Source of the DNA: Bradyrhizobium lablabi
GTDB taxonomy: Bacteria; Pseudomonadota; Alphaproteobacteria; Rhizobiales; Xanthobacteraceae
DNA length: 64,000 nt
Assembly: GCF_018129385.1 (NCBI RefSeq)
Contig: NZ_JAFCLN010000008.1
Location: 1-64,000, forward strand
Reading direction: 5' to 3'
Made by a program: the position numbers and the translations under genes. This document shows positions 10,224 to 64,000 of the stretch, piece after piece (the first letter of the stretch is position 1; every line of letters begins with the position of its first letter). The notes below the pieces were generated by a model. The model was not told where the DNA came from. It worked only from the letters and a program-made list of their open reading frames with translations, and made no database searches.

Positions 10224-10285
10224 GTCCAGCGGAAGACGTCGGGCGTCGGCGCACGGCCACAGGAATCGCACGACAAATTCTCCTG

Positions 10286-10318
10286 CTTGGAATCGCTCTA
10301 AGAGCTATTCCAAGTTTT
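10286..10318 (+). terminator. Probable rho-independent terminator of sdhCDAB
   Basis: CTTGGAAT (10286-10293) pairs with ATTCCAAG (10307-10314), with an inner CTCT/AGAG pairing, followed directly by TTTT. It lies about 60 bases after the sdhB stop. Confidence 0.65.
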
Positions 10319-10388
10319 CCCGACGATCACTGATGCTATGGCATCGCGGCGCGACGCGGTGTCGCACGTGTTTTGTCAGGAGAATTTC

Positions 10389-10670: not shown

Positions 10671-10680
10671 GCCGGCCCGC

Positions 10681-11283
10681 TTGCAGCAGCCCGTCCAAGC
10701 GTCAGTCGACGCGGCCTCACCAATGCCGGCGCGCCCGCGCGCGCCGGACATGGTGCGGGTGTGGGATCTTCCGCTGCGCGCCACGCACTGGGCGCTGGCC
10801 ATCTTCGTGCTGGTCGCCTGGTTCACGCCCAGCACCTACGACCGCTTGCACCGGTTCGCCGGCTACACCGTGCTCGGCCTGCTGGTGTTCCGGCTCGCCT
10901 GGGGGGTTTTCGGCACGCGCTATTCGCAATTCCGTACGCTGCGGCGCCGGCTGCGCGCCACGCCGCAATTCCTCTGGAACCTGCGGCGCGGCAAGACCGG
11001 GCGTTATCTCGGGCTCAACCCGGCGGGCGCGGCGATGCTGGTGGCGATGCTACTGCTGCTTGCGATCTCGACCATCACCGGGTGGATGTCGACCACGGTG
11101 ACGTTCTTCGGGGTGCCCTGGGTGGAGGACACCCACAGCTACGTCTCCGACGCCGTCATGATCCTGGCCGTGCTGCACGTGCTCGGCGTCCTCGCGATGT
11201 GTGCGTTGCAGAGAGAAAACCTGGTGCGGTCGATGTTGTCAGGCTGGAAGCGGCGTCACGCCTTTCCGCACAAGCGGGACTGA
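10681..11283 (+). CDS. Cytochrome b561-like membrane protein
   Basis: About 200 residues with four membrane helices of the bacterial cytochrome b (b561, hydrogenase-type) family. It opens the domain with VRVWDLPLRATHWALA, where the histidine is a heme b ligand. Further histidines are in LHRFAGYTVLG, EDTHSYVSD and LAVLHVLGVLAM. The start is uncertain: TTG at 10681 or ATG at 10723, neither with a good ribosome site. It is probably co-transcribed with the PepSY gene just upstream and carries electrons across or within the inner membrane. The partner is unknown. Confidence 0.85.
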   Translation: MQQPVQASVDAASPMPARPRAPDMVRVWDLPLRATHWALAIFVLVAWFTPSTYDRLHRFAGYTVLGLLVFRLAWGVFGTRYSQFRTLRRRLRATPQFLWNLRRGKTGRYLGLNPAGAAMLVAMLLLLAISTITGWMSTTVTFFGVPWVEDTHSYVSDAVMILAVLHVLGVLAMCALQRENLVRSMLSGWKRRHAFPHKRD

Positions 11284-11380
11284 ACGGCCCTCCGGGGAGC
11301 CATGCGGTTCCATCGCACCGCCCTGCTTTGTTCTCACGACAGTTTGACGTAAGGTTGCAGCGGCCGAATTCGGAGCGCCC

Positions 11381-13525
11381 GTGCACCCCGCACAACGCAA
11401 TTCGTTAAAATTGCTGCAATGGATGATGGCGGCCTCGCTGGCCCTCCCGCTGGCGCTGTTCATTTTTGCCTCCACGGTTTCCTGGATTTCGATCAAGGAG
11501 GCCGCCGACCGGGAAATCGGCCGCACGCTCGATGTCGCGCATGAGCACGCGCTGAAAGTGTTCGAGACCATCGACCGCGCCAATTCGGAAATCGCGGAAG
11601 TTATCCGCGGCATTCCGGACGAGGGCATCCGCTCGCGCGAGGAAGCGCTGCATCAGCGGCTGAAGGAAATGGTCGCTTCGCTGCCGCAGGTGAAGTCGAC
11701 CTGGATTTTCGACGCCAGCGGCCATGCGCTGGTCAACAGCCTGGTGTCGCCGCCGCCCGAGATCGACTTTTCCGACCGCGACTATTTCAAGGCGCATGTC
11801 GCCGCCGATATCGGCACCTTCATCGGCGCCGCGCTGACCCCGCGTCCGCCCTATCAGGGCGCGCCGTTCTTCGGCGTCAGCCGCCGCCGGCCGAGCGAGA
11901 GCGGCAGCTTTACCGGCGTGATCCAGGCCTCCGTCTATCCGGAATATTTCGAGAATTTCTACGCGCGGATCGGGCGCGAGCCCGGCAGCTTTTTCGCATT
12001 GGGCCGAACCGACGGCATGGTGCTGGCCCGCTTTCCGACGCTCGATCGCGGCGTCCAGCTCGACCGTGACGGGCCCGTCGGCAGGAAGATGGCCGCCAAT
12101 CCCGAAGGCGGCCTGATCACGGTGACGTCGCCGACCGACCAGATCGAGCGCCGGATCGGGTACAGGCGGCTCGCCGGCTATCCGATCTATGTTAGCGCGG
12201 GTCTCGAGACTTCGGCGATCCGCGCGCGCTGGCTTTCCACCGTGAGCCAGCATCTGGTGTTCGGCCTGCCGGCCACCGCGCTGCTGTTCGTATTCCTCGC
12301 GTTGGCGCTGCGGCGGACGCAGAATTTCTATGCCGAAACCGCCAAGCGGCAGGAGGCGGAGGAAGCATTGAAGCACGGCCAGCGCCTGGAGGCGCTGGGC
12401 CAGCTCACCGGCGGCGTCGCGCACGACTTCAACAATCTGCTGACCGTGATCCGCGCTTCGGCCGACATGTTGCGGCGGCCGCATCTTTCCGACGAGCGGC
12501 GGCAGCGTTATGTCGAGGCGATTTCCGACACCGTCAACCGCGCCGCGAAGCTGACCGCGCAACTGCTGGCGTTTGCGCGGCGGCAAACGCTCAAGCCGGA
12601 ACTGTTCGACGTCGGCGAAAGCGTGCAGATGCTGAGCGAGATCATCCGCACCCTGACCGGCGCGCGCATCGAGATCGTCACCCGCGTCCCGGGCGGGCCC
12701 TGCCTGATCAATGCCGATGCCGGCCAGTTCGAGACGGCGATGATCAACATGGCGGTCAACGCGCGCGACGCCATGGGCGGCGAAGGCCGGCTGACCATCG
12801 CGGTTCGCACCGTGGCCGAACTCCCCGGCCCCGCGCCGCATGCAACACGCGCCGAGGGCTATGTGGCCGTCACCGTCGAGGATACCGGCAGCGGCATTCC
12901 GCCGGATCAGCTCGGACGGATTTTTGAGCCGTTCTTCACTACCAAGGAAGTCGGCCACGGCACCGGGCTCGGGCTGTCGCAGGTGTTCGGCTTTGCCAAG
13001 CAATCGGGCGGCGAGGTGACCGTCGACAGCGAGCTCGGCAAGGGCAGCGCCTTCACGCTGTATCTGCCGCGCGTCATCGGGGCAGAGCGTCCGCTACAGG
13101 CCACGCCGGCGGAATCGTCGGCAGCCGACGGCCACGGCATCTCGGTGCTCGTGGTCGAGGACAATGCCGAGGTCGGACGATTCGCGAGCGATGCGCTCAC
13201 TGAGCTCGGCTACGACACCACCATGGTCGGCAGCGCCGTCCACGCGCTGGAAGAGCTGTTCAACGATTCCAGCCGCTTCGACGTGGTGTTCTCCGACGTA
13301 GTGATGCCGGGCATGACCGGCATCGAGCTGGCGCAGGAAATCCGTCGGCGCGGCTATGACGTGCCGATCGTGTTGACCAGCGGCTACAGCCATGTGCTGT
13401 CCGAACAGGGCACGCTCGGCTTCGAGCTGCTGCAAAAGCCCTATTCGGTCGAGCAGCTTTCGCGCGCCCTGCACAAGGTGGCGCGGCGGCGCACCGCGCG
13501 CGATGCGGCGCCGGCGGCATCCTGA
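11381..13525 (+). CDS. Hybrid sensor histidine kinase/response regulator with periplasmic sensor
   Basis: A 714-residue protein starting at GTG. A membrane helix (residues 12-36) is followed by a Cache-type periplasmic domain (about 40-280, with FSDRDYFKAH and FFGVSRR). A second helix near 285-307 leads into a HisKA/HATPase core with phospho-acceptor His348 in GGVAHDFNNLL, an N box, DTGSGIP and GTGLGLSQV. The C-terminal receiver (about 585-705) has LVVEDN and phospho-acceptor Asp639. The DFNNLL-type H box marks the NtrB-like group. No separate output regulator is adjacent, so the downstream target is unknown. Cache domains usually bind small organic acids or amino acids. Confidence 0.92.
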   Translation: MHPAQRNSLKLLQWMMAASLALPLALFIFASTVSWISIKEAADREIGRTLDVAHEHALKVFETIDRANSEIAEVIRGIPDEGIRSREEALHQRLKEMVASLPQVKSTWIFDASGHALVNSLVSPPPEIDFSDRDYFKAHVAADIGTFIGAALTPRPPYQGAPFFGVSRRRPSESGSFTGVIQASVYPEYFENFYARIGREPGSFFALGRTDGMVLARFPTLDRGVQLDRDGPVGRKMAANPEGGLITVTSPTDQIERRIGYRRLAGYPIYVSAGLETSAIRARWLSTVSQHLVFGLPATALLFVFLALALRRTQNFYAETAKRQEAEEALKHGQRLEALGQLTGGVAHDFNNLLTVIRASADMLRRPHLSDERRQRYVEAISDTVNRAAKLTAQLLAFARRQTLKPELFDVGESVQMLSEIIRTLTGARIEIVTRVPGGPCLINADAGQFETAMINMAVNARDAMGGEGRLTIAVRTVAELPGPAPHATRAEGYVAVTVEDTGSGIPPDQLGRIFEPFFTTKEVGHGTGLGLSQVFGFAKQSGGEVTVDSELGKGSAFTLYLPRVIGAERPLQATPAESSAADGHGISVLVVEDNAEVGRFASDALTELGYDTTMVGSAVHALEELFNDSSRFDVVFSDVVMPGMTGIELAQEIRRRGYDVPIVLTSGYSHVLSEQGTLGFELLQKPYSVEQLSRALHKVARRRTARDAAPAAS

Positions 13526-50836: not shown

Positions 50837-51877
50837 CTAATAATTCGTCGACGTCAGTTCGTTCGGGATGCCGTCGATCGGGCATTCGTCGGTGCCGGCC
50901 GTTGAGCGGGTCATGGCTTCAACCATTTCGCGCGTCCCTTCGGGATCGGCGATCCACTTCGAATAGAAATCGTAAGGACAGGCCGCAACGCCCTTCGGGC
51001 TCTCGCCGGAATTGATCTTGCCGGTGTAGCCGCGATGCAGCAGCTTGTAGAGGTGGTTCTGCGACTGGCCATGCTTACGGAAGTCGCGGATCATGTGCTT
51101 TGACAGCGCCGCGTACTGGATGCCGTTCTCCTCCTCGCCGGTCTCGCCCAGCGTGCGGCCGTCGAACCCGATGATGGCGGAATGGCCGAAATAGGAATAG
51201 ACGCCGTCGAAACCGGCGGCATTGGCGACCGCGACATAGACGTTGTTGGCCCAGGCCATCGCCTTGGAGATCAAGACCTGCTGTTCCTTGGCGGGATACA
51301 TGTAGCCCTGGCAGCGCACGATCAGCTCGGCGCCCTTCATGGCGCAGTCGCGCCAGATTTCCGGATAGTTGCCGTCGTCGCAGATAATCAGGCTGATCTT
51401 GAGGCCCTTCGGGCCCTCGGAAACGTACGTGCAATTGCCGGGATACCAGCCTTCGATCGGCACCCATGGCATGATCTTGCGATATTTCTGCACGATCTCG
51501 CCCTTGTCGTTCATCAGGATCAGCGTGTTGTAGGGCGCCTTGTTCGGATGATCCTCGTGGCGTTCGCCGGTCAGCGAGAACACGCCCCAGACCTTTGCCT
51601 TGCGGCAGGCTTCCGCGAAGATCGCCGTCTCTTCGCCCGGAACGACCGAGGCGGTCTCGTACATCTCCTTGGAGTCGTACATGATCCCTTGCGTGGAATA
51701 TTCCGGGAAGATCACGAGATCCATGCCGGGCAAGCCGGCCTTCATCCCGATGATCATCTCCGCGATGTTGCGCGCGTTGGCAAGCACCTCGGCCTTGGTG
51801 TGCAGGCGCGGCATCTTGTAATTGACGACGGCCACGCCGACCGCGTCGTTGCTCGAGGAAATGTCACCGTGAAGCAT
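50837..51877 (-). CDS. amiE: Aliphatic amidase
   Basis: A 346-residue nitrilase-superfamily enzyme, exactly the length of the Pseudomonas AmiE. The catalytic triad is in the known positions: Glu59 (FPEYSTQGI), Lys134 (YRKIMPW) and Cys166 (CDDGNYPE). It splits short aliphatic amides such as acetamide and propionamide to the acid and ammonia in the cytoplasm. AGGAG precedes the ATG. It is the last gene of the urt-fmd operon, so ammonia from imported amides is the likely product. Confidence 0.95.
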
Positions 51878-51905: not shown

Positions 51906-52253
51906 TTAGTGGCTGATCATCCAGGGGCGCGCGGTCGGAAAACCTTTCGCGCCGCCTTTTGTCTTCGTCATCAAGCGCGCCGGCTTCCTGGCTGTGCCGG
52001 AGCAGCAGCCGCAGCCCGGGCCGTGCGAGGCCTTGTACTGATCGAGCGTTTTTGGCGCGTGGCTGCTTTGCTCGTTGGTGGCGTGGGCCTTGCGCTTGTC
52101 CGACGGCATGCAGAAGAAATTCGGCGCGGTCAGGATGACGCGCGGCGAGGACTCTTCACATTGCGGACAGTCTTGCGGCAGGTCGCATTCCGCCATCGGC
52201 CGCAGGTCGGTGAACGGACCGCAATCGTTGCAGAGATATTCGTAGACGGGCAT
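51906..52253 (-). CDS. fmdB: FmdB family zinc-ribbon protein
   Basis: A 115-residue protein. The N-terminal zinc ribbon starts [12 protein letters not shown] with Cys8 and Cys11 and pairs with CPQC further on. The C-terminal half contains a second cysteine group (GPGCGCC) and a basic tail. FmdB was described beside formamidase as a putative regulator in Methylophilus; its direct role is not settled. The Met at 52253 replaces a longer frame. It lies between fmdA and amiE. Confidence 0.85.
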
Positions 52254-52334: not shown

Positions 52335-53564
52335 TCACTTGTCCGGCGAGAGCGGCATCTGGATGTCGCCCTTGATATGTTTGATGGGTCCGGCCGCCGA
52401 CGGCATGATGTCGAAGTCAAAGATCTCCGTCGGCAGCCACAGCGTGGCGCAGGCATTGGGCACGTCGACGACACCGGAGATGTGGCCCTGGCACGGCGCA
52501 GTGCCGAGGATCGAATAAGCCTGCGCGCCGGAATAGCCGAACTTCTTGAGATATTCGATCGCGTTCAGGCAGGCCTGGCGGTAGGCAATGTGGACGTCGA
52601 GATAGTGCTGCTTGCCCTCCTCGTCGACCGAGATGCCCTCGAATATCAAATAGTCCTTGTAGTTCGGCGTGATCGGCGACGGCTTGAACACGGGATTCTT
52701 GATGCCGTATTTGGCAACGCCGTCCTTGATGACGTCGACCTTGAGATGCAGCCAGCCCGCCATCTCGATGGCGCCGCAGAAGGTGATCTCGCCGTCGCCC
52801 TGGCTGAAATGCAGGTCGCCCATCGAGAGCCCGCCGCCCGGCACGTAGACCGGGAAGTAGATTTTCGATCCGCGCGACAGATCCTTGATGTCGCAATTGC
52901 CGCCGTGCTCGCGCGGCGGCACGGTGCGCGCACCTTCAGCGCCGATCTTGGCCTTGATATCGCCCTTGGCCTGGCCGGCATGCGCGGTCGGCGCGAAGGG
53001 CGGATTGGCAAGGCCCGGCACGCGCGTCGGGTTGGTCGCAATCAGCGCGGTCTCGCGCTCATTCCATTTGGACAGCAGCTTTGGATCGGGCAGACAGCCG
53101 ATCAGGCCGGGATGGATCAGGCCGGCAAAGCTGACACCGGGCACATGGCGCGAGGACGTGTAGAGGCCGTGAATGTCCCAGATCGACTTTTGCGCCAGCG
53201 GGAAATGATCGGTGAGGAAGCCGCCGCCGTTCTTCTTGGAGAAGAAGCCGTTGAAGCCCCACAGGCTCTCCTTCAGCGGGCCGACGTCGAGCAGATCCAC
53301 CACGAGCAAGTCGCCGGGCTCGGCGCCCTTGACGCCGATCGGGCCGGACAGGAAATGCACGATCGACAGATCGATGTCGCGCACGTCGTCGGCGGAATCG
53401 TTGTTCTTGATGAAGCCGCCGGTCCAGTCATAGGTCTCGATGATGAAGTCATCGCCCGGCTTGACCCAGGCCACGATCGGAACGTCCGGATGCCAGCGGT
53501 TATGGATCATGTCGTTATCATAGGCCGATTTGCTGAGATCGACCTTGATCAGTGTCTCTGGCAT
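52335..53564 (-). CDS. fmdA: Formamidase
   Basis: A 409-residue acetamidase/formamidase-family enzyme that hydrolyses formamide to formate and ammonia. Family marks are RWHPDVPIVAWVKPGDDF near the start, LSIVHFLSGPIGVKGAEPGDLLVVDLLDVG, EHGGNCDIKDLSRGSKIYFPVYVPGG and GDLHFSQGDGEITFCGAIEMAG. GGGGAG precedes the ATG. The gene is 50 bases after urtE and is probably in the same operon as the transporter. Confidence 0.95.
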   Translation of the reverse strand: MPETLIKVDLSKSAYDNDMIHNRWHPDVPIVAWVKPGDDFIIETYDWTGGFIKNNDSADDVRDIDLSIVHFLSGPIGVKGAEPGDLLVVDLLDVGPLKESLWGFNGFFSKKNGGGFLTDHFPLAQKSIWDIHGLYTSSRHVPGVSFAGLIHPGLIGCLPDPKLLSKWNERETALIATNPTRVPGLANPPFAPTAHAGQAKGDIKAKIGAEGARTVPPREHGGNCDIKDLSRGSKIYFPVYVPGGGLSMGDLHFSQGDGEITFCGAIEMAGWLHLKVDVIKDGVAKYGIKNPVFKPSPITPNYKDYLIFEGISVDEEGKQHYLDVHIAYRQACLNAIEYLKKFGYSGAQAYSILGTAPCQGHISGVVDVPNACATLWLPTEIFDFDIMPSAAGPIKHIKGDIQMPLSPDK

Positions 53565-53614: not shown

Positions 53615-54304
53615 CTAAACCGACAGGTATTTCGATATCTGTGCGGCATCGACGCCGTCGCGTGGATCGTCGCGAACGATCTCGCCGTTCTCGATCACGA
53701 GCACGCGGTCGGCGACGTCGAGCGCAAAACTCAGCACCTGTTCGGAAACGACGATGGACAGGCCGCGCTCGTCGCGGATGCGCTTGAGCGTGCGCGCCAT
53801 GTCCTTGATGATGGATGGCTGGATGCCTTCGGTCGGCTCATCCAGCAGCAGCACCTTCGGCTTGGTGGCGAGCGCGCGTGCAATCGCGAGCTGCTGTTGC
53901 TGGCCGCCGGAAAGATTGCCGCCGCGGCGATTCTTCATTTCAAGAAGCACCGGGAACAGTTCATAGATGCTGCCGGGTACCTCGGATTCACCGTTCACGA
54001 CCAGCCCGGTCTCGATGTTCTCCTTCACCGTCATGGTGGAGAAGATCATGCGGCCCTGCGGCACGTAAGCGAGCCCTTTGGCGACGCGCTGAAAGCTCTG
54101 CATCGCACTGAGCTCGGCGCCGTCCATTTTCACCGAGCCGCTCTTGGTGGGCAGAATGCCCATCAGCGATTTCATCAGCGTGGTCTTGCCCATGCCGTTG
54201 CGGCCCATGATGGCCACGATCTCGTTGGGTGCGACGGACACGTTGAGGCCGTGCAGCACTTCGCTCTGGCCGTAGGCAACATGAAGATCGGAAATAGCAA
54301 GCAT
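53615..54304 (-). CDS. urtE: Urea/short-chain amide ABC transporter, ATP-binding protein UrtE
   Basis: A 229-residue ATPase. It has Walker A GRNGMGKTT near residues 34-42, the signature NLSGGQQQQLAIARAL, Walker B KVLLLDEPTEGIQPSI and the UrtE-type start ISDLHVAYGQSEVLHGLNV. It powers uptake with UrtD and the permeases UrtB and UrtC. GGGGAG is the ribosome site. The gene follows urtD by 11 bases. Confidence 0.93.
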   Translation of the reverse strand: MLAISDLHVAYGQSEVLHGLNVSVAPNEIVAIMGRNGMGKTTLMKSLMGILPTKSGSVKMDGAELSAMQSFQRVAKGLAYVPQGRMIFSTMTVKENIETGLVVNGESEVPGSIYELFPVLLEMKNRRGGNLSGGQQQQLAIARALATKPKVLLLDEPTEGIQPSIIKDMARTLKRIRDERGLSIVVSEQVLSFALDVADRVLVIENGEIVRDDPRDGVDAAQISKYLSV

Positions 54305-54315: not shown

Positions 54316-55071
54316 TCAGTGCCCCAGATAGACTTCGATCACCTTCGGATCGTTTTTCACCTTCTCCATCGTCCCTTCGGAGAGGATCTGGCCCTGGTGC
54401 AGCACGGTGACCTTATGGGCGATGTCCTCGACGAATTTCATGTCGTGCTCGATCACCAGCACCGAGCGGTCCTTGATGATGCGGTTGAGCAGTTCGGCGG
54501 TCTTGGCGCGCTCGCTCACGCTCATGCCCGCGACCGGCTCGTCGAGCATCAGCAGGTCCGGGTCCTGGATCAGCAGCATGCCGATCTCCAGCCATTGCTT
54601 CTGGCCGTGGCTGAGCTGATCGGCATAGGTGTGAAGGCGATCTTTCAGGAAAATCATCTCTGCGACTTCTTCCACCCGCGCCTTCACGGCGGCGTCACGC
54701 TGGAACGTGAGCGAACCGAACACCGTGCGACCGCGCGGAAAGGAGATTTCGAGATTCTCGAACACGGTGAGGTCCTCGAACACCGACGGCGTCTGGAATT
54801 TGCGGCCGACGCCGGTCTGGACGATCTCGTTCTCCTTCAGCTTGGTCAGCTCCTTGCCGCGGAACTGGATCGAGCCTGATGTCGCTTTCGTCTTGCCGCA
54901 GATCAGGTCGAGCACGGTGGTCTTGCCGGCGCCGTTCGGGCCGATAATGACGCGGATCTCGTTCTCCTCGACGTAGAAGGAGAGATTGTTGACTGCCTTG
55001 AAGCCGTCAAAAGACACCGTGAGCGCTTCGACCGCGAGCAGGAATTCCTTGGGCTGGTGTCCGATTAACAT
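54316..55071 (-). CDS. urtD: Urea/short-chain amide ABC transporter, ATP-binding protein UrtD
   Basis: A 251-residue ATPase of the branched-chain amino acid/urea type. The order is EALTVSFDGFKAVNNLSFYVEENE, Walker A GPNGAGKTTVLD, signature LSHGQKQWLEIGMLL (SHGQ in place of SGGQ, normal for UrtD), and Walker B DLLMLDEPVAGMS. AGGAGA precedes the ATG. It partners with UrtE at the cytoplasmic face of the inner membrane. Confidence 0.93.
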   Translation of the reverse strand: MLIGHQPKEFLLAVEALTVSFDGFKAVNNLSFYVEENEIRVIIGPNGAGKTTVLDLICGKTKATSGSIQFRGKELTKLKENEIVQTGVGRKFQTPSVFEDLTVFENLEISFPRGRTVFGSLTFQRDAAVKARVEEVAEMIFLKDRLHTYADQLSHGQKQWLEIGMLLIQDPDLLMLDEPVAGMSVSERAKTAELLNRIIKDRSVLVIEHDMKFVEDIAHKVTVLHQGQILSEGTMEKVKNDPKVIEVYLGH

Positions 55072-55082: not shown

Positions 55083-56228
55083 TTACTCCGCGGGAGCGCC
55101 GGCGGCGACGGAACTATCCGCCCCATTGCTCATCTTCGATTTGCGCGATGCCAGCAGGCGGTCGATGCGCGGCTGCACATAGTCAGCCCACAGTCCGGAC
55201 AGCCCGTTCGGGAAGGCGAGCACGACAGCGATGAACAGCGCGCCGAGGCCGAACAGCCAGAGCTGCGGGAAGGATTCCGACAGGCTGGTCTTGGCAAAAT
55301 TCACCAGCATCGCCCCCCACACCGCGCCGAAGATCGACATCCGTCCGCCGACCGCGGTGTAGATCACCATCTCGATCGATGGCACGATTCCGACAAAGGA
55401 CGGCGACATGAAACCGACATTGAGCGCGAACATGGCGCCGCCGATCGCGGCGAACACCGCGGCCATGCAGAAGGCAAAGATCTTGAAGTTGGCGACGCTA
55501 TAGCCGGAGAAGCGGACGCGGTCTTCCTGCTCGCGCATCGCCACCAGGATGCGGCCGAGTTTGGTCAGGCGGATGAACTGCGCCAGGAGGATGCAGCCGA
55601 ACAGCAGGAATACTTCAAAGAAGTAGAGAATGACCTTGGCGTGGTCGGGACGGATGTCCCATCCCTTCAGCGTGCGCAGGTCGGTCATGCCGTTGATGCC
55701 GCCGGTATAGCCCTGCTGCCCGACGATCAGGATGGTCAGAATGGCCGCGACGGCTTGCGTGATGATTGCAAAGTAGGTGCCGCCGACGCGCCGCTTGAAC
55801 ATCGCGGTGCCGATGATGAGGGCGAACAGGCCGGGCACCAGGATGATGAGGAGGATGGTCAAGGTGAGACTGTGGAACGGCTGCCAGAAGAACGGCAGCG
55901 CCGTGATCTGATTCCAGTCCATGAAGTCAGGGATGCCCGGCGTCGACTGGATCTTGGTGTTCTCGACACTGGAGGCCTCGAGCTTGAGGAACATCGCCAT
56001 GCAGTAGCCGCCGAGGCCGAAGAACACGCCCTGCCCCAGGCTCAGAATGCCGCCATAGCCCCAACACAGCACGAGGCCGATCGCGACGAAGGCGTAGGTG
56101 AGATATTTTGCGACGAGGTTGAGGCGGAACACATCCAGCGACAGCGGCAGGATCACGAACAGCAGCGCAGCCAGCGCGATGAAGCCAATGAGCTCGGATC
56201 GATTGAAGAAGCGCGAGTTGATGATCAT
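55083..56228 (-). CDS. urtC: Urea/short-chain amide ABC transporter permease UrtC
   Basis: A 381-residue permease of the LivM type with about ten helices. Recognisable parts are YLTYAFVAIGLVLCWGYGGILSLGQGVFFGLGGY, the long periplasmic loop near residues 75-95, RVGGTYFAIITQAVAAIL, GWDIRPDHAKVILYFFEVFLLFG and GVLGAVWG-like MSIFGAVWGAMLVNFAKT. The C-terminus is a hydrophilic tail. It follows urtB by 17 bases. Confidence 0.93.
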   Translation of the reverse strand: MIINSRFFNRSELIGFIALAALLFVILPLSLDVFRLNLVAKYLTYAFVAIGLVLCWGYGGILSLGQGVFFGLGGYCMAMFLKLEASSVENTKIQSTPGIPDFMDWNQITALPFFWQPFHSLTLTILLIILVPGLFALIIGTAMFKRRVGGTYFAIITQAVAAILTILIVGQQGYTGGINGMTDLRTLKGWDIRPDHAKVILYFFEVFLLFGCILLAQFIRLTKLGRILVAMREQEDRVRFSGYSVANFKIFAFCMAAVFAAIGGAMFALNVGFMSPSFVGIVPSIEMVIYTAVGGRMSIFGAVWGAMLVNFAKTSLSESFPQLWLFGLGALFIAVVLAFPNGLSGLWADYVQPRIDRLLASRKSKMSNGADSSVAAGAPAE

Positions 56229-56245: not shown

Positions 56246-57172
56246 TTATTTGCGGACCTTGAGGGCGAACAGACCCTGCGGACGCAGCATCAGGATTCCG
56301 ACGACCGCAAGCAGCGTCAGCACCTTGGCCATCGAGCCCGACATGAAGAACTCGAGCGTCGACTGGGTCTGCGAGATCGAGAAGGCAGAGGCGATGGTGC
56401 CGAGCAGGCTGGCGGCGCCGCCGAACACGACCACAAGGAAGGTATCGACGATGTAGAGCTGGCCGGAGGTCGGCCCGGTCGAGCCGATCATGGTGAAGGC
56501 GCTACCGGCAACACCGGCGATGCCGCAGCCGAGACCGAAGGTGTAGCGATCGACCTTCTCGGTATTGATGCCGACGGCGCCGGCCATGATGCGGTTCTGC
56601 ACGACGGCGCGGACCTGGCGGCCCCAGCGCGACAGATAGAGGACGTAGGCAACGACGACGGTGATCAGCACCGTCAGGCACATCACGAACACGCCGTTGA
56701 TCGGAACTTCGATAGTGTCGGTGACCTTGAGCGAACCCAGCATCCACTGCGGCAACTCGACGCCGACTTCGCGCGCGCCGAAGATCGAGCGATAGGCCTG
56801 TTGCAGGATAAGGCTGAGGCCCCAGGTTGCAAGCAACGTATCGAGCGGGCGTTTATAGAGGTGGCGGATCAGCCCCCATTCGACCAGCATGCCGAGCGCA
56901 CCGGAAGCGAGGAAGGCGAGCACCATCGCCAGAAAGAAGTAGCCGGGAAACAACGACGGCAGATATTCCTGGAACGCGTTCGACGTCAGCCAGGTGACGT
57001 AGGCGCCGAGGATCATGAACTCGCCATGGGCCATGTTGATGACGCCCATCTGGCCGAAGATGATCGCAAGTCCCAGCGCCATCAGCACGTAGACGGAGAA
57101 CAGGATCAGGCCCGCAAAGCCCTGCATCACGAAGATCGAGCCGAGATCGCCAATCGAATAGTCGCCGAACAT
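56246..57172 (-). CDS. urtB: Urea/short-chain amide ABC transporter permease UrtB (short form)
   Basis: A 308-residue permease of the LivH type with about eight helices. LGLAIIFGQMGVINMAHGEFMILGAYVTWL is the conserved opening, and NRIMAGAVGINTEKVDRYTFGLGCGIAGVAG and VDTFLVVVFGGAASLLGTI follow. It lacks the ~200-residue N-terminal extension found on cyanobacterial-type UrtB. The ATG at 57172 has GGAG nine bases upstream; the frame also opens at a TTG one codon earlier. Confidence 0.92.
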   Translation of the reverse strand: MFGDYSIGDLGSIFVMQGFAGLILFSVYVLMALGLAIIFGQMGVINMAHGEFMILGAYVTWLTSNAFQEYLPSLFPGYFFLAMVLAFLASGALGMLVEWGLIRHLYKRPLDTLLATWGLSLILQQAYRSIFGAREVGVELPQWMLGSLKVTDTIEVPINGVFVMCLTVLITVVVAYVLYLSRWGRQVRAVVQNRIMAGAVGINTEKVDRYTFGLGCGIAGVAGSAFTMIGSTGPTSGQLYIVDTFLVVVFGGAASLLGTIASAFSISQTQSTLEFFMSGSMAKVLTLLAVVGILMLRPQGLFALKVRK

Positions 57173-57299
57173 CAATGTTTCTCCGCCGGGAGGAAATCCC
57201 CGCGTCGCGTGCCGGAACGCGACGCGGGGCCGTCAAGCGTGGATTGACGGTCCACGCCAGGGAGCTGTGTTGTTGGAGAAGACGCGAGAGACGTCGCGC

Positions 57300-58559
57300 T
57301 TACTGGTAGCCCTTCGGGAACGGATCGGGCTGGACCAGATCGGCGGTCTCGAACACCAGCTCGAACTGACCGTCCAGCTTTGCCCTTCCGACGCGCGTCT
57401 TCGACCAGAGGTGATGGTTCTCGTGGATCCGGACGTAACCCTCCGGTGCACCCTTGAACTCGATGCCGGGCGAGGCCGCCGCCACCTTGTCGACGTCGAA
57501 GGAGCCCGCTTTCTCGACGGTCGCCTTCCAAAGCCACGGGCCAAGATAGGCAGCCTGGGTGACGTCACCGATCACGGTCTTGTCGCCCCACATCTTCTTG
57601 AACGCGGCAACGAACTTCTCGTTGTTGTCGTTCTTGAGCGACTGGAAGTACTTCATGCAGGCATAGGCGCCGGCGATGTTCTCGCCGCCGATGCCGTCGA
57701 TCTCGTCTTCGGTGACCGAGATGGTCAGCAGCGCCTGTTTCGACAGGTCGATGCCGGCCGCCTTGAGCTGCTTGTAGAAGGCGACGTTGGAGCCGCCGAC
57801 GACGTCGGTGAAGATCACGTCGGGCTTGGTCAGCTTGATCTTGTTGATCACCGAGTTGAACTGGGTGCTGCCCAGCGGGAAGTATTCCTCGCCGACGACC
57901 TTCAGCTTCAGGAAGTTTTCGATGTGCTTGCGCGCGATCTTGTTGGAGGTACGCGGCCAGATGTAGTCGGAGCCGATGAAGTAGAACGACTTGGCATTCT
58001 TCTCCTTGGTGATCCAGTCGATGCCGGCAAGGATCTGCTGGGTCGCTTCCTGGCCGGTGTAGATCACGTTCTTGGACTGCTCGAGGCCTTCGTAGAAGGT
58101 CGGGTAATAGAGCATGCCGTTGTACTGCTCCATCACTGGCAGCACCGCCTTGCGCGAGGCCGAGGTCCAGCAGCCCATGATCGAGGCCACCTTGTCGTTG
58201 ACGAGGAGTTTCTTGGCCTTCTCGGCAAACGTCGGCCAATCGCTGGCGCCGTCTTCCTGGATCACCTTGATCTTGCGGCCAAGCACGCCGCCCATGGCGT
58301 TGATCTGCTCGATGGCGAGCTTTTCGGCCTGGATCGATCCGGTTTCGGAAATTGCCATGGTGCCGGTCGCCGAGTGCAGGATGCCGACCGTGACTTCAGT
58401 GTCGGTGACGGCAAGGCCCGTCGTATTGACCGCCGATGTCGCCGGTCCGGCGCCAAAGGCCACGCGCGGCAATAGCGCCATCGCAGGTAGAGCGGCCGCT
58501 CCCATGAGCAGCTTACGGCGAAAAGGAGACTGTAAACCCCGTTTGTTCTCGTCTGACAT
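57300..58559 (-). CDS. urtA: Urea/short-chain amide ABC transporter substrate-binding protein UrtA
   Basis: A 419-residue periplasmic binding protein with a Tat-like signal (FRRKLLMGAAALPAMALLPRVAFG). It shows the UrtA/FmdD/AmiC-like fold: EVTVGILHSATGTMAISETG at the ligand pocket, INAMGGVLGRKIKVIQEDGASDWPTFAEKA, SRKAVLPVMEQYNGMLYYPTFYEG and TVEKAGSFDVDKVAAA. The Met at 58559 begins the cytoplasmic lead of the signal. It is the first gene of the operon urtABCDE-fmdA-fmdB-amiE and probably delivers urea or amides. Confidence 0.93.
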   Translation of the reverse strand: MSDENKRGLQSPFRRKLLMGAAALPAMALLPRVAFGAGPATSAVNTTGLAVTDTEVTVGILHSATGTMAISETGSIQAEKLAIEQINAMGGVLGRKIKVIQEDGASDWPTFAEKAKKLLVNDKVASIMGCWTSASRKAVLPVMEQYNGMLYYPTFYEGLEQSKNVIYTGQEATQQILAGIDWITKEKNAKSFYFIGSDYIWPRTSNKIARKHIENFLKLKVVGEEYFPLGSTQFNSVINKIKLTKPDVIFTDVVGGSNVAFYKQLKAAGIDLSKQALLTISVTEDEIDGIGGENIAGAYACMKYFQSLKNDNNEKFVAAFKKMWGDKTVIGDVTQAAYLGPWLWKATVEKAGSFDVDKVAAASPGIEFKGAPEGYVRIHENHHLWSKTRVGRAKLDGQFELVFETADLVQPDPFPKGYQ

Positions 58560-58629
58560 GAGCACCCCATTTTTTGGTTCGTGGACACGCTTGGTCAGGT
58601 GAGGTTGGCCCGGATTGTGCAGCGCACAG

Positions 58630-58647
58630 ATACGCAAGATCGCGTAT
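58630..58647. promoter_or_regulatory. Dyad in the urtA/sensor-kinase divergent promoter
   Basis: ATACGC (58630-58635) and GCGTAT (58642-58647) are exact inverted half-sites with a six-base spacer, in the 152-base gap between urtA and the sensor kinase. The size suits a LuxR-type response regulator such as the one at 62090. No RpoN-type -24/-12 element was seen. Confidence 0.45.
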
Positions 58648-58711
58648 ATTGCACCGCAAAATAGCGACGTAGGTTAGTGGCGTAGTCCGGGTACGGGGGA
58701 GTTCCAGGCAA

Positions 58712-61700
58712 GTGGCAGGGCGACAGCGGATAGACCGCGTCAGGCGCCAATATAATCAATGGGTTGCCAACCAGACGCTGGAAGACTACGCGCTGCGCTT
58801 CACGGCCAAGGCCGCGCGGCGATGGTCCGCCGCCCGCGTCGCCAACACCGCCCTTGGCGCGATCTCGTTCCTGGCGCTGGAAGCCATCGGCGGCACCATC
58901 GCGCTGAACTACGGCTTCACCAACGCCACCGCCGCGATCCTGGTCGTCAGCGTCATCATTTTCGCCTGCGGCCTGCCGATTGCGTACCATGCCGCCAAAT
59001 GCGGCATCGACATCGACCTGCTCACCCGTGGCGCGGGCTTTGGCTATATCGGCTCGACCATCACCTCGCTGATCTACGCGTCCTTCACCTTCATCTTCTT
59101 TGCGATCGAGGCGGTGATCCTGGCGAGCGCGCTCGAAATGTGCTTCGGCATTCCGCGGCCGCTCGGCTACCTCATCAGCGCTGTCGTCATCATCCCGCTG
59201 GTGACGCACGGCATCACGCTGATCAGCCGCTTCCAGCTATGGACGCAGCCGGTGTGGGTCGTGCTGCACATCCTGCCGTTTGCGGCGATCGCCTGGGCCA
59301 GTCCTCATTCGTTCAGTGAATGGCGGAAGTTCGCGGGTGAGCATGGCGATCCCTCGGGCCACCTCGACCTCCTGATGTTCGGGGCCGCCGCCTCTGTGGT
59401 GTTTTCGCTGGTGGCGCAGATCGGCGAACAGGTCGACTTCCTGCGCTTCCTGCCGCGCGATCGCCGCACCTCACGCGCCTCCTGGTGGACCTCGCTGCTG
59501 ATCGCCGGCCCGGGCTGGATCATTTTCGGCGCGCTCAAGCTGCTGCTCGGCTCGTTCCTCGCGTTCTTCGCGTTGAGCCACGGCCTCACCGCCGAGCAGG
59601 CCGCCGAGCCCGCGCACATGTATCTCGAAGCGTTCCGCTATGTGCTGTCGCAGCCGGACATGGCGCTGGCGCTGACCGGCGCCTTCGTCATCCTCTCGCA
59701 GATCAAGATCAACGTCACCAACGCCTATGCCGGCTCGATCGCCTGGTCGAACTTCTTTTCGCGGCTGACGCACAGCCATCCCGGCCGCGTCGTGTGGCTG
59801 GTGTTCAACGTGCTGGTCGCGCTGCTGCTGATGGAGATCGGGGTCTACAAGGCACTGGAGCAGACGCTGGCGCTCTATTCCAATGTCGCGATCGCCTGGG
59901 TCGGGGCGCTGGTCGCCGATCTCGTCATCAACAAGCCGCTCGGCCTGCGGCCGCAGCACATCGAGTTCAAGCGCGCGCATCTCTGCGACATCAACCCGGT
60001 CGGCGTCGGCGCGATGCTGATTGCGACCATCGTGTCGATCTCTGCGTTCTACGGCCTGTTCGGGCCGACGGCTAAGGCGCTGTCGGCTTTCGTCGCGCTC
60101 GCCGTGGCATTCATCACGGCGCCGCTGATCGCATGGGCCACCGACGGCAAATACTACATCGCGCGCAAGCCGAAGCGGAGCTGGCAGAATCTGCAGTCGA
60201 TCCAGTGCTGCATCTGCGAGCATTCGTTCGAACCGGAGGACATGGCCTCCTGCCCCGCCTATGCCGGCCCGATCTGCTCGCTGTGCTGCTCGCTCGATGC
60301 GCGCTGCCACGATCTGTGCAAACCGCATGCGCGGATCGGCGCACAGGTGTCGGAGACGCTCGGCAAGATGCTGCCGCAGCCGATCTTCGCGCGGATCAAT
60401 TCGCAGTTCGGGCATTATCTCGGCGTGTTCGCGATATCGGCCGGTCTGGTGGCGCTGACGCTCGGGCTGATTTATCTGGAGACATCGGCGACCGCGCAGT
60501 CCAACACGCAGCTTCTGTCAGACGTGCTGTGGAAGGTGTTCTTCGCGCTCACCATCATCATCGGCGTGGTGGCATGGCTGTTCGTGCTGGCGCAGCAGAG
60601 CCGGCGCGCGGCGGAAGCCGAGACGCGGCGGCAAACCACGCTGTTGATTCAGGAAATCGACGCGCACAAGCGCACCGACGCCGAATTGCAGCGCGCCAAG
60701 GAAGTCGCCGAATCCGCCAACCTCGCCAAGAGCCGCTATGTAGTCGGACTCAGCCACGAATTGCGCTCGCCGTTGAACGCGATCAGCGGCTACGCGCAAC
60801 TGCTGGAACAGGATGCGAGCCTGCTGGCAAAACCGCGCGACCAGGTGCGCGTCGTCCGCCGCAGCGCCGATCACCTTTCCGGCCTGATCGACGGCATTCT
60901 GGATATTTCCAAGATCGAGGCCGGACGGCTGTATCTGTCGCGCGACCAGGTCCGCTTCAGCGATTTCCTCGACCAGCTCGTCGGCATGTTCCGCCTGCAG
61001 GCCGCGGCCAAGGGAGTTGAGTTCATCTTCAAGCGACCTGCGGTGCTGCCGGTCGTGGTCTATGCCGATGAGAAGCGCCTGCGGCAGATCTTGATCAACC
61101 TGCTGTCCAACGCCATCAAGTTCACGCAAGCCGGCAGCGTGCAGTTCGTGGTGCATTACCGCAGCCCGGTGACGGAATTCGAGGTGATCGACACCGGTCC
61201 CGGCATTCAGCCTGATGATCTCGAGCGCATCTTTGCGCCATTCGAGCGCGGCGCGATCGGCGTGTCGCAGCCGCACACAGGCACCGGTCTCGGGCTGACC
61301 ATCAGCCGCCTGCTGGCGGGCGTGATGGGCGGCGACATCAAGGTGACGTCGACGGTCGGCAAGGGCAGCACGTTCCGGGTAAAAATTCTTCTGTCGGAAG
61401 TGACCAACCCGACGCAATCCGCGCCGGTCGATGCCCCCGTGTTCGGCTATCACGGCCCGCGCAAGACGATCCTGATCACCGACGACGATCCGACCCAGCG
61501 CGATCTGTTGCGCGAGGTGCTGGCGCCGCTCGGCTTCATCCTGCTCAGCGCGCCCGACGGGCCCGGCTGCCTGGCGCTGGCGCAGCACTGCCGGCCCGAT
61601 CTGTTCCTGCTCGACATCTCGATGGCAGGCATGGACGGCTGGACGGTGGCCGAGACATTGCGCGCCAACGGCCATCATCAGGCGCGCATCCTGATGGTGT

Positions 61701-62086
61701 CGGCGAGCGCGCTCGAAGCGCACGGCGCGCCGCTGGCGCAGCCCTATCACGACGGCTACCTGATGAAGCCGATCGACATCCCCCGCCTGCTCGAAACCAT
61801 TCGGCAGTTGCTCAAGCTCGAATGGCAGTATGAAGCCGAGCATGCGGTCGCGGCGCCGCGATGGCGGCCGGACACCGGTTCGCGCCCGCCGGTGAAACAT
61901 GTCGAGGAGCTGATCCGCCTCGGACAGCTCGGCCATATCAGAGCCATCCAGCTCAAGCTCGACGAAATCGGCAAGGAATCTCCCGTACTCGCCGATTTCG
62001 TCTCGGAAATGCGCTCATTGATTGATCGATTCGACCTGGATCAATTCATGGCAGCGCTGAAGACCCTGTACAGCTATGATCACTGA
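58712..62086 (+). CDS. NCS1 permease-histidine kinase-receiver fusion (probable nitrogen-compound sensor)
   Basis: An 1124-residue protein starting at GTG. Residues 1-480 have about twelve helices of the NCS1 purine/cytosine permease type (LGAISFLALEAIGGTIALNYG, GLPIAYHAAKCGIDIDLLTRG, SQIKINVTNAYAGSIAWSNFF). A cysteine-rich segment follows (nine Cys between 499 and 536 with His504, 533 and 539), probably zinc-binding. Two more helices (about 575-640) lead to a coiled coil and a full kinase core: His682 in SHELRSPLN, an N box near 793, DTGPGIQ and GTGLGLTISR. A receiver with Asp968 (LFLLDISMAGMDGW) and a C-terminal helical region end it. It is divergent from the urea/amide operon and coupled to a REC-LuxR regulator. 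It probably senses and may bind or transport a nitrogenous solute. Confidence 0.92.
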   Translation: MAGRQRIDRVRRQYNQWVANQTLEDYALRFTAKAARRWSAARVANTALGAISFLALEAIGGTIALNYGFTNATAAILVVSVIIFACGLPIAYHAAKCGIDIDLLTRGAGFGYIGSTITSLIYASFTFIFFAIEAVILASALEMCFGIPRPLGYLISAVVIIPLVTHGITLISRFQLWTQPVWVVLHILPFAAIAWASPHSFSEWRKFAGEHGDPSGHLDLLMFGAAASVVFSLVAQIGEQVDFLRFLPRDRRTSRASWWTSLLIAGPGWIIFGALKLLLGSFLAFFALSHGLTAEQAAEPAHMYLEAFRYVLSQPDMALALTGAFVILSQIKINVTNAYAGSIAWSNFFSRLTHSHPGRVVWLVFNVLVALLLMEIGVYKALEQTLALYSNVAIAWVGALVADLVINKPLGLRPQHIEFKRAHLCDINPVGVGAMLIATIVSISAFYGLFGPTAKALSAFVALAVAFITAPLIAWATDGKYYIARKPKRSWQNLQSIQCCICEHSFEPEDMASCPAYAGPICSLCCSLDARCHDLCKPHARIGAQVSETLGKMLPQPIFARINSQFGHYLGVFAISAGLVALTLGLIYLETSATAQSNTQLLSDVLWKVFFALTIIIGVVAWLFVLAQQSRRAAEAETRRQTTLLIQEIDAHKRTDAELQRAKEVAESANLAKSRYVVGLSHELRSPLNAISGYAQLLEQDASLLAKPRDQVRVVRRSADHLSGLIDGILDISKIEAGRLYLSRDQVRFSDFLDQLVGMFRLQAAAKGVEFIFKRPAVLPVVVYADEKRLRQILINLLSNAIKFTQAGSVQFVVHYRSPVTEFEVIDTGPGIQPDDLERIFAPFERGAIGVSQPHTGTGLGLTISRLLAGVMGGDIKVTSTVGKGSTFRVKILLSEVTNPTQSAPVDAPVFGYHGPRKTILITDDDPTQRDLLREVLAPLGFILLSAPDGPGCLALAQHCRPDLFLLDISMAGMDGWTVAETLRANGHHQARILMVSASALEAHGAPLAQPYHDGYLMKPIDIPRLLETIRQLLKLEWQYEAEHAVAAPRWRPDTGSRPPVKHVEELIRLGQLGHIRAIQLKLDEIGKESPVLADFVSEMRSLIDRFDLDQFMAALKTLYSYDH

Positions 62087-62102
62087 ACTATGATCACTGA
62101 AC
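62075..62102. repeat. Exact tandem 14-base duplication at a stop/start junction
   Basis: TATGATCACTGAAC occurs twice in immediate succession. The first copy encodes the last codons of the sensor kinase (Tyr-Asp-His-stop), and the second encodes the start of the response regulator (ATG at 62090). The first copy also creates an out-of-frame ATG. Confidence 0.85.
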
Positions 62103-63016
62103 CCAAGAAGCGCGACGTCGCACTGGTCGTCGACGATTCCCCGGAGACGCTGCGGTTATTGACCGACGCGCTCGACGGCGCCGACATGACCGTCATGGTC
62201 GCGCTCGACGGCGCCAGCGCGATGCGGATCGTCGACCAGATCACGCCCGATATCGTGCTGCTGGATGCCGTGATGCCCGGCATGGATGGATTTGAGACCT
62301 GCAAGCGGCTGAAGCGCGACGCCGGCCTTGCCAATGTGCCGATCATCTTCATGACGGGCCTTGCCGAAACCGAGCATATCGTACGGGGTCTGGAGGCCGG
62401 CGGCGTCGACTACGTGACAAAGCCTATCGTGGTTCAGGAGATGCTGGCGCGCATCCGCGTGCATCTCGCCAACGCGCGGATGACGCAGAGCGCGCGGGCC
62501 GCGCTGGATGTTTCCGGCCGCTATCTGCTCGCCGTCAGCGGTCGGGGGAAGATCCTGTGGGCGACCCCGCAGGCACAAAAGCTGCTGTCGGCGACCTTTC
62601 CGGCCAGCGCGAATGACGACTTCGAGCTGCCCGAGCCATTGCCGCAATGGCTGGATCAGGCGCAGGGCGGCAAAGCTCCGTCCAAGGCACCATCGATGTT
62701 GCTGCCGGGCGAGGAGCCGCTGCGGCTGCATTTCATGGGCAAGCTCGCGCCGAACGAATTCCTGTTGCGGCTCGCAAGGGACGCCGGCGTCGACACGCCG
62801 GTGGAGTTCTCCAGCGAACTTGGCCTCACCACGCGCGAGGGCGAAGTGCTGTCATGGCTCGCCAAGGGCAAGACCAACCGCGACATCGCGCAAATCCTGG
62901 GGCTGTCGCCGCGCACGATCGACAAGCATCTCGAGCAGATTTATTCCAAGCTCGGCGTCGAAAACCGCACCGCCGCAGCGGCCATTGCGGTCCACGCGAG
63001 GAACCGGAAAACCTGA
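62090..63016 (+). CDS. REC-LuxR response regulator, partner of the permease-kinase
   Basis: A 308-residue regulator. The receiver (about 7-125) has VVDDSPETLRLL and phospho-acceptor Asp59 in VLLDAVMPGMDG. A middle segment (about 130-230) of unknown type follows. The LuxR HTH near 240-300 shows LTTREGEVLSWLAKGKTNRDIAQILGLSPRTIDKHLEQIYSKLGV. Its ATG lies four bases after the kinase stop, so the two are translationally linked. It is likely to control the divergent urt-fmd-amiE operon. Confidence 0.92.
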   Translation: MITEPKKRDVALVVDDSPETLRLLTDALDGADMTVMVALDGASAMRIVDQITPDIVLLDAVMPGMDGFETCKRLKRDAGLANVPIIFMTGLAETEHIVRGLEAGGVDYVTKPIVVQEMLARIRVHLANARMTQSARAALDVSGRYLLAVSGRGKILWATPQAQKLLSATFPASANDDFELPEPLPQWLDQAQGGKAPSKAPSMLLPGEEPLRLHFMGKLAPNEFLLRLARDAGVDTPVEFSSELGLTTREGEVLSWLAKGKTNRDIAQILGLSPRTIDKHLEQIYSKLGVENRTAAAAIAVHARNRKT

Positions 63017-63019
63017 CGT

Positions 63020-63406
63020 CTATTCGGATGCGTCAGCCGGCTCGACGCCGCGCTTGAGCGCGGCGCGGGCGGCCTCGCGGTGCTCCGGCGTGATGTGGGT
63101 CGTGACCAGGCGGATGGCGGTCGCCAGCACGGCGGCATCGTCGGTGAAGCCGAGGATCGGCAGCACATCCGGCATGAAGTCGAATGGCAGGACGAAATAG
63201 GCGATTGCCCCCAGCAGCGAGGCCTGCACATGCCGCGGTGTCTGGCGGTCGAATGCGCAATAATAGGCGGCGAGCAGGTCCTCGGCGAACGGCAGCTTTG
63301 CCATCACCTGCTTGAACTTGGATTTGAACCGCCGGCGCACGCTCTCGCGGTCCTGCGCCAGCCGGTCGGCGGGCTCAAACCCCACGCTGTGTTCAAACGT
63401 TGCCAT
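63020..63406 (-). CDS. DUF1232 (YkvA-like) small membrane protein
   Basis: A 128-residue protein. A basic N-terminal half (FKSKFKQVMAKLPFAEDLLAAYYCA) precedes the conserved DUF1232 segment LLGAIAYFVLPFDFMPDVLPILGFTDDAAVLATAI, which is hydrophobic and contains the conserved PxDxxPD-type turn. The ATG at 63406 follows GGGGAGAGG. Function unknown. It converges on the LuxR regulator, with three bases between the stops. Confidence 0.85.
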   Translation of the reverse strand: MATFEHSVGFEPADRLAQDRESVRRRFKSKFKQVMAKLPFAEDLLAAYYCAFDRQTPRHVQASLLGAIAYFVLPFDFMPDVLPILGFTDDAAVLATAIRLVTTHITPEHREAARAALKRGVEPADASE

Positions 63407-63498
63407 CAACCTCTCCCCTCAGCCGGCGCGGCGTATCGCCACGCGGCCGGTATTTCAATTGGGGATGACGACCTGTCACTGCAAGCACGCTTTTGTCG

Positions 63499-63548
63499 GC
63501 GCATGATCTTTTCGAAAAACCGGTGCCCACCTTTCGCGGATCATGCGC
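63499..63548. repeat. Family B repeat, copy 4
   Basis: Arms GCGCATGATC (63499-63508) and GATCATGCGC (63539-63548) around TTTTCGAAAAACCGGTGCCC. Its end GCGCTAG contributes the TAG stop codon (63548-63550) of the dehydratase gene. Confidence 0.75.
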
Positions 63549-63853
63549 TAGCTGACGCCGAACTGCCTGGCGATGGAGTTCATTGCCTTGGCAAGCTCGA
63601 TGTCGAGCCGGGTGACGCCGCCGGCGTCATGGGTCGCCAGCACCACTTCCACGGTTTTGTAGACGTTGCGCCATTCCGGGTGATGGTCCTTCTTTTCGGC
63701 GACCAGCGCGGCGCGCGACATGAAGCCGAACGCTTCATTGAAATCCTTGAAGGTGAAGGTTTTGGTGATCGCCTCCCGGCCGGACACCTCGCTCCAGCCG
63801 GACAATTCCAGCAGCGCCGCCGTTCGCGCCTCCGCCGTCAGCCGCTCCAACAT
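63548..63853 (-). CDS. Pterin-4a-carbinolamine dehydratase
   Basis: A 101-residue enzyme that dehydrates 4a-hydroxytetrahydrobiopterin, the cofactor-recycling step for aromatic amino acid hydroxylases. The catalytic EKKDHHPEW motif has His57 and His58. The rest ([45 protein letters not shown]) is standard. The ATG at 63853 follows GGAGG; a GTG four codons upstream is less well supported. No phenylalanine hydroxylase is linked here. Confidence 0.92.
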
Positions 63854-64000
63854 GCTCGCCTCCACCTTTCACGGGAACTTTACCCTAACACCGAACGCCG
63901 GCCATCCGATCCATGCCACAATATGGCAGCAAATCCGGTCCATTGCGGCCCGCTAACCATGAAGCGGCTGAGCCGGCCGAATCGGCAGGGAATTTGCTAG

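Follow-up and report, generated by a model that had tools for sequence, protein, structure and literature searches.

The stretch of DNA analyzed here (the window) comprises the first 64,000 nucleotides of contig NZ_JAFCLN010000008.1 of Bradyrhizobium lablabi and includes a gene for a hybrid histidine kinase that is joined at its N-terminus to a permease-like domain. As read from its open reading frame (ORF), its Pfam matches and an AlphaFold2 model, the gene occupies positions 58712 to 62086 of the plus strand, starts with GTG and encodes 1124 amino acids. The gene of its cognate response regulator starts 3 bp behind it on the same strand (62090–63016; 308 amino acids). Pfam identifies a receiver and a LuxR-type (GerE) helix-turn-helix domain in this regulator; in an AlphaFold2 model with a mean pLDDT of 77.6 we read the strand order of the part between them as PAS-like.

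An operon for uptake and hydrolysis of urea or amides is transcribed in the opposite direction, on the minus strand. It begins with urtA, the substrate-binding protein of a urea/amide ABC transporter (57300–58559; TIGR03407, 540.8 bits against a cut-off of 492.75), and continues with urtB (56246–57175; TIGR03409), urtC (55083–56228; TIGR03408), urtD (54316–55071; TIGR03411) and urtE (53615–54304; TIGR03410), all four above the cut-offs of their models. These are followed by the formamidase gene fmdA (52335–53564; NF045496, 756 bits with a cut-off of 500, and PF03069), an fmdB-type zinc ribbon gene (51906–52253; TIGR02605 and NF053663, both above cut-off) and the aliphatic amidase gene amiE (50837–51877; NF009802, 716 bits with a cut-off of 427). 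Two models, one for the FmdB zinc ribbon and one for the RPWMISH domain, match the fmdB-type protein. The longest ORF of urtA begins at 58637; a conserved ATG lies at 58559. We moved the start of urtA to the latter, and the divergent spacer, from this ATG to the kinase GTG at 58712, therefore measures 152 bp (58560–58711). A scan of the spacer for sigma-70 promoters and terminators returned nothing.

Domains of the fusion protein

From the N-terminus, the protein is composed of an NCS1-like permease domain, a module of eight cysteines, a pair of helices, HisKA, HATPase_c, a receiver and a tail. HisKA with His682 (residues 673–738; 60728–60925), HATPase_c (residues 786–894; 61067–61393) and the receiver with Asp968 (Response_reg; residues 920–1031; 61469–61804), all on the plus strand, exceed their Pfam cut-offs. 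Of 53 non-redundant relatives, all retain His682 and 50 retain Asp968; the other three have gaps at the latter position. By Pfam and alignment, the protein thus possesses the phospho-accepting histidine in HisKA, the HATPase_c domain and the phospho-accepting aspartate in a receiver that define a hybrid histidine kinase, and a preliminary description of this DNA, which had called it a complete kinase with both residues at these positions, was correct. The receiver is absent from three relatives (loci are labeled L and sampled genomes G, each with a number): from L139 and L141 according to Pfam, and from the Paracoccus fusion L183 (873 amino acids) as judged by length and alignment. Two shortened fusion frames, L069 (579 amino acids) and L087 (522 amino acids), come from metagenome-derived contigs and perhaps reflect errors of assembly or sequencing.

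What kind of transporter does the N-terminal half resemble? Pfam finds no family match in residues 1–659, and Pfam and NCBIfam scans gave the permease domain no family name. We assigned residues 1–485 (58712–60166, plus strand) to an NCS1-like permease domain by Foldseek, VIA-align 2 and hhalign. The structural comparisons used an AlphaFold2 model of residues 1–640, built from 17 sequences, with a mean pLDDT of 69.6. In keeping with the NCS1-type permease fold proposed in the preliminary description, Mhp1 and CodB alone fill the first five Foldseek rows for this model (E 2e-7 to 1.2e-6), ahead of any other family. VIA-align 2 superimposes 391 residues on CodB with a Z score of 30.1 (3.8 Å, 17% identity) and scores Mhp1 at 24.2–26.8 and the remaining LeuT-fold chains at no more than 22.6. 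At the level of profiles, hhalign aligns 25 fusions with three proteins of PF02133, the NCS1 Pfam family (E 5.7e-6, probability 85.5, 301 columns), over residues 30–362 with gaps. As a control, one SSS protein of the window's genome scored a probability of 0.02; a lone NCS1 sequence scored 24 (E 8e-4). An intermediate is provided by L146, a distant stand-alone relative, 27–30% identical, which matches PF02133 at 3.6e-9. A permease of the SLC5 type is not indicated, given that Pfam finds no match to SSF (PF00474) and the hhalign SSS control is low; nor does Pfam find an ammonium transporter domain anywhere in the kinase protein. We considered and rejected a derivation of the permease from NCS1 carriers of the same genome: a PF02133 search of the window's genome found nothing at E≤0.001.

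The permease is more conserved than the kinase, with a mean share of the commonest residue of 0.70 vs 0.64 among the non-redundant relatives. When permease domains linked to amide genes (38 sequences) and to urea genes (13 sequences) are compared, five positions, all conservative, differ at loose thresholds. This suggests either one pocket that would accommodate urea as well as short amides, or a tuning too fine to see in the sequences.

Between permease and kinase lies the eight-cysteine module (residues 499–536; 60206–60319, plus strand), with C499, C502, C514, C522, C525, C526, C532 and C536 in the spacing C-x2-C-x11-C-x7-C-x2-CC-x5-C-x3-C. This exact spacing is found in 134/134 full-length fusions, a set rich in Bradyrhizobium, and each cysteine in 53/53 non-redundant ones. 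We searched 398 evenly drawn Pseudomonadota genomes with a profile of the module and obtained 57 confident matches; compared by eye, their genomes and contigs coincide with those of the 57 fusions described below. Up to 16 candidates per genome were scored, so that other carriers are possible. Weak matches (E 1e-4 to 8e-3) numbered six and were judged to be due to chance. The module is followed by two long helices in the secondary structure of the model (residues ~565–594 and 599–639; 60404–60628, plus strand), located between the cysteines and the kinase and probably membranous. The module, the helix pair, the LuxR-type regulator and the operator described below were not part of the preliminary description.

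Distribution and gene neighbors

Among the 398 sampled genomes, 56 contain a match at E≤1e-5, and 52 of these encode a total of 57 fusions. Eleven places were left out of this count, namely six distant permeases (25–30% identity), one fragment of 51 residues and, for four matches that were split, the second piece. Are these sensors consistently found near genes for amide or urea use? Canonical fmdA, defined by PF03069 at E≤7.5e-167 with exclusion of weaker PF03069 rows, is represented by 43 genes in 40 genomes, and no more than 15 kb separate 39 of these genes from a fusion; conversely, 39/57 fusions have fmdA within that distance, and the by-genome table of fusion against fmdA reads 39/13/1/345. 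The other 18 fusions comprise 16 that lie beside urease genes and/or a urea-type urtA, which is ~40% identical to amide-type urtA, and two on cut contigs (G111, G224). One locus counted with fmdA, L125 (G360), is mixed, as urease genes adjoin its kinase and fmdA is ~12 kb away. Homologs situated mostly next to unrelated genes would have spoken against the functional link drawn in the preliminary description; instead, 55/57 sampled fusions are near formamidase, urease or urtA.

The Bradyrhizobium-heavy set of 134 full-length fusions divides into 106 of amide type, 18 of urea type (including L125), eight with amide-type urtA only and two without usable flanks. Five sampled genomes encode two fusions each. 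In four of them one copy lies beside fmdA and the other beside urease genes (L169/L134, L170/L133, L127/L136 and L123/L145); in the fifth, G091, both are of amide type. L139, L141 and the Paracoccus locus L183 (8920–13381) have fmdA and an AmiS/UreI channel gene as neighbors, and no urt genes were found there; in the Paracoccus record, the fusion is succeeded by two separate genes for response regulators. At the Klebsiella and Thioclava loci, urt genes are combined with an AmiF-type formamidase. Canonical fmdA genes with no sensor within 15 kb include G196:C15:18830-19963 and G114:C16:56797-57930, the latter in a genome devoid of any fusion match.

Plasmids also carry the family: 529 plasmid records contain a match, 342 of them from Klebsiella, and 307/529 are predicted to be conjugative. 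On the one Klebsiella fusion record examined, L179 (NZ_CP058760.1), the sensor lies beside urtABCDE and amiF. Annotation on plasmids mostly labels the sensor 'ATP-binding protein' or 'response regulator'. Fusion and regulator form orphan pairs in L232 (Tistrella mobilis pTM1, 8965–13511) and L239 (an Azospirillum ramasamyi plasmid, 9001–13391).

The same permease subfamily has members that lack a kinase. These are 41–46% identical to the permease domain of the window, and the one of Methylovirgula, at 5941–7590 of L198, is 54% identical. In Acinetobacter and Klebsiella they are located within a urease operon; they adjoin fmdA in Moraxella and an aliphatic amidase in Arthrobacter, and lie near fmdA in Tsukamurella. 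The Streptomyces member has no urea or amide neighbor within 6 kb. These proteins end in a cysteine tail corresponding to the module, with the complete set of eight cysteines in Methylovirgula, five in Streptomyces, four in Acinetobacter, Klebsiella and Moraxella, two in Tsukamurella and one in Arthrobacter. Fusion and stand-alone copy occur together in three loci. They are divergent neighbors in Acinetobacter baumannii and in G697, and Methylovirgula has the order formamidase / fusion, regulator, stand-alone permease / amidase; the operator lies between the two copies or upstream of the pair. In a phylogenetic tree, eight stand-alone permeases form one clade (support 100/98) nested inside the fusions. 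The AU test does not reject a tree in which the fusions form a group of their own (p 0.454), so that the kinase may have been either gained or lost.

A predicted operator in the shared promoter

The divergent spacer contains a palindrome, TACGC-N6-GCGTA (58631–58646), which we predict to be the operator of this system; its distance is 72 bp to the start of urtA and 66 bp to that of the kinase. Alignment of 75 spacers from the window and its near relatives reveals the conserved stretch ATACGC-N6-GCGTAT, with more conserved bases behind it. The 42-bp form of this operator occurs once in the 7.2-Mb genome at up to three mismatches. The shorter palindrome has five copies in this genome, against 45 for the pattern read backwards, and the four copies outside the spacer are inside predicted ORFs.

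We tallied the palindrome upstream of kinase genes, excluding proteins of less than 850 amino acids, loci with less than 200 bp upstream, L125 and unlabelled loci. TACGY-N6-RCGTA lies within −500 to +50 of the kinase start in 96/114 amide-type loci. After reduction to 85% non-redundancy it remains in 25/38, compared with 0.12 expected from its density elsewhere. Among 13,312 combinations of half-site and spacer, the commonest is ATACG-N8-CGTAT, present in 17/38 non-redundant amide-type loci, and TACG-N8-CGTA is found in 27/38. The strict form is absent from the L139, L141 and L183 loci.

Elsewhere in these partly redundant loci there are 14 further copies. Seven lie 88–116 bp before a match to fmdA, five lie 94–160 bp before a match to urea-type urtA and one is inside urtA; the last precedes, by ~300 bp, an ORF leading into urease genes. 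The A. baumannii locus has a single copy, in the interval that separates the fusion from its divergent neighbor, the stand-alone permease, and in Methylovirgula one copy precedes the kinase/formamidase pair and another precedes amiE. The fusion of Tistrella (L232) has the operator upstream as well, though without urea or amide neighbors.

A held-out set consisted of 27 of 30 loci (L217, L224 and L229 had been seen before and were not counted; L216 and L227 represent one spacer), of which 17 reach only ~1.5 kb beyond the match. The palindrome is present in 13/27, and all 14 copies (13 distinct) are upstream of a kinase, a urea-type urtA or amiF; one of these copies occupies a spacer on which a stand-alone permease also borders. 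Control of the divergent urt-fmd-amiE operon by the kinase, as anticipated in the preliminary description, is well supported as a prediction from sequence, given the conserved neighbors and the palindrome both in the shared promoter and in front of fmdA, urtA, amiF and amiE where these are split off.

Apart from this system, the plus-strand ORF at 63080–64000 is probably spurious; minus-strand frames in 62950–64000 resemble a pterin carbinolamine dehydratase and a DUF1232-type protein, both recognized by eye.

A proposed sensor of urea and short amides

We propose, with a probability of about 75%, that kinase and regulator form a two-component system for urea and short-chain amides in which a transporter has become the sensor (a 'transceptor'). 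The ligand class is suggested by the shared context of these fusions, which includes formamidases of two unrelated families, aliphatic amidase, urease, urt genes, AmiS/UreI and the stand-alone permeases. The permease domain would bind a small carboxamide such as urea, formamide or acetamide from outside, and may also carry it. Its alternating-access movement would be passed through the eight-cysteine module and the helix pair to the kinase dimer. Phosphate would move, as the order of domains suggests, from His682 to Asp968 and/or to the LuxR-type regulator, and the phosphorylated regulator would bind the palindrome ATACGY-N6-RCGTAT and turn on urtABCDE-fmdA-fmdB-amiE. From the same palindrome it may also activate its own operon. 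In sister systems, the same kit is placed next to urease, next to fmdA and an AmiS/UreI channel gene, or next to a stand-alone permease.

Several findings weigh against this proposal. The permease domain has no match to PF02133 even at E≤5, this model matches just one of 39 relatives in our set (L146), and a profile of the 39 retrieves nothing at E≤1 from the sequences of PDB chains. Kinship with NCS1 is consequently based on the fold, the comparison of profiles and one intermediate sequence. A LeuT fold most similar to Mhp1/CodB and profile-level homology are both found, and we call the domain NCS1-like, rather than a member of NCS1, because the PF02133 match is missing. Since amide- and urea-linked domains show no clear difference in residues, gene context cannot tell which ligand is sensed. 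The strict palindrome is upstream of the kinase in 1/17 urea-type loci (0/13 non-redundant ones), is missing upstream of 13/38 non-redundant amide-type kinases and is absent from 14/27 held-out loci, which are moreover not independent by descent. The Fisher test for the association of fusion and fmdA (p 1e-41) likewise ignores relatedness, and two of 13 annotated plasmid fusion loci, those of Tistrella and Azospirillum ramasamyi, are without urea or amide genes up to a distance of 9 kb.

Could the permease be a receptor only, which binds its ligand and no longer transports it? We regard this as a substantial possibility, at about one chance in three. Uptake seems to be supplied by other proteins, be it urtABCDE, AmiS/UreI or an adjoining stand-alone permease; however, the whole permease is highly conserved, its subfamily includes stand-alone and presumably true transporters, and the SLC5 domain of CbrA is reported to carry histidine (PMC13022988). 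Most fusions adjoin urt genes, which would fit a kinase that reads the flux or loaded state of the neighboring Urt transporter instead of a ligand in its own permease. We consider this improbable, as the Paracoccus locus, L139 and L141 have fmdA and amiS with no urt found, and A. baumannii has no match to urt, fmdA, amidase or urease within ~8–10 kb, only the stand-alone permease.

The fixed spacing of eight cysteines in every full-length fusion, together with the fact that fmdB is likewise a zinc-ribbon gene, raises the question of whether the cysteine module is the main sensor, for metal or redox state, with the permease as its anchor and metal supply controlling metal-dependent hydrolases. 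This is unlikely in our view: the permease is conserved about as strongly, and the shrinkage of the tail to 5, 4, 2 and 1 cysteines in stand-alone permeases fits a structural or coupling role better. The usual substrates of NCS1 proteins are nucleobases, hydantoin and allantoin. A fusion that senses one of these, with the amide genes as a downstream branch of purine breakdown, would be in line with the fold, with the names 'allantoin' or 'cytosine' permease that annotators give to stand-alone relatives, and with the orphan L239, which adjoins genes annotated as xanthine dehydrogenase family. Little else points to such a ligand, and we hold it to be very improbable. The product names that recur in the plasmid loci are urease, formamidase, amidase and urt, with no purine gene besides those of L239; product names were read in the plasmid loci, and the other loci were probed for urea and amide genes only.

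How does the proposed urea and amide transceptor compare with known systems? CbrA is described as a transceptor, in which the STAC linker is packed beneath the permease (PMC13022988). CrbS belongs to the hybrid kinases, and its partner CrbR, a LuxR-family regulator, requires an inverted repeat at target promoters (PMC5715377). The fusion shares with CbrA/CbrB and CrbS/CrbR a LeuT-fold permease joined to a kinase, and with CrbS/CrbR also the LuxR-family regulator and the inverted repeat. In contrast to the SLC5 permease and four-helix STAC linker of CbrA and CrbS, it has an NCS1-like permease and, as its probable linker, an eight-cysteine module and two helices, and would respond to another class of ligand. 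By analogy, the system would work like CbrA and CrbS with a different transporter and linker. Ks-Amt5 is also a transporter of a nitrogen compound on a histidine kinase, but one of the Amt fold (PMC5764959), to which we find no match here. Mhp1 and CodB have the same fold as the permease domain, which has profile similarity to PF02133 proteins; the domain differs in the missing PF02133 match, in the low identity (17% in the CodB superposition), in the cysteine module and kinase that follow it and in gene context. AmiC/AmiR resembles our system in that an amide sensor controls an amidase operon, amiE, but it is a separate system that uses soluble AmiC and RNA antitermination (PMC13209695). Clusters of transport and hydrolase genes as found here have been described on the chromosome of Pseudomonas veronii Yu15, where the authors suggest that the transporter may take formamide (PMC13209695), and in Klebsiella CG307 as 'UTS' (urtABC/amiF), where it is suggested that it may take urea (PMC13060141). 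The terms 'histidine kinase' and 'two-component' do not occur in the main text of either report, and among the titles and abstract openings listed in our search of the open-access literature (15–20 of up to 1,017 papers at a time) there was neither an NCS1-kinase fusion nor a kinase for urt or fmdA.

The permease subfamily may, as a tentative proposal that we would not yet favor, represent a novel NCS1-fold branch that handles urea and amides, compounds with an open chain, and its stand-alone members may have split off from a sensor kinase. A carrier would then have arisen from a receptor by loss of the kinase, with tails of eight, five, four and one or two cysteines as relics of the module. 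In three loci, parent sensor and released transporter would still adjoin, with the operator of the sensor in the shared spacer or upstream.

Taken together, the fusions make up a real and widespread sensor family that has so far had no name, and the predictions of its ligand class, operator and regulon are well supported. About one in eight of the sampled Pseudomonadota genomes (52/398) carries this sensor. Formamidase and a large class of urea/amide ABC transporters gain a candidate regulator in it, and its predicted operator is defined and can easily be tested. On the Klebsiella record examined, the sensor lies beside urt/amiF, a unit that has been discussed as a urinary-tract trait in a report whose main text mentions no kinase (PMC13060141). 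The few transporter-kinase fusions known from bacteria would be joined by one with a further transporter fold, and the family suggests a route by which receptor and carrier may be interconverted.

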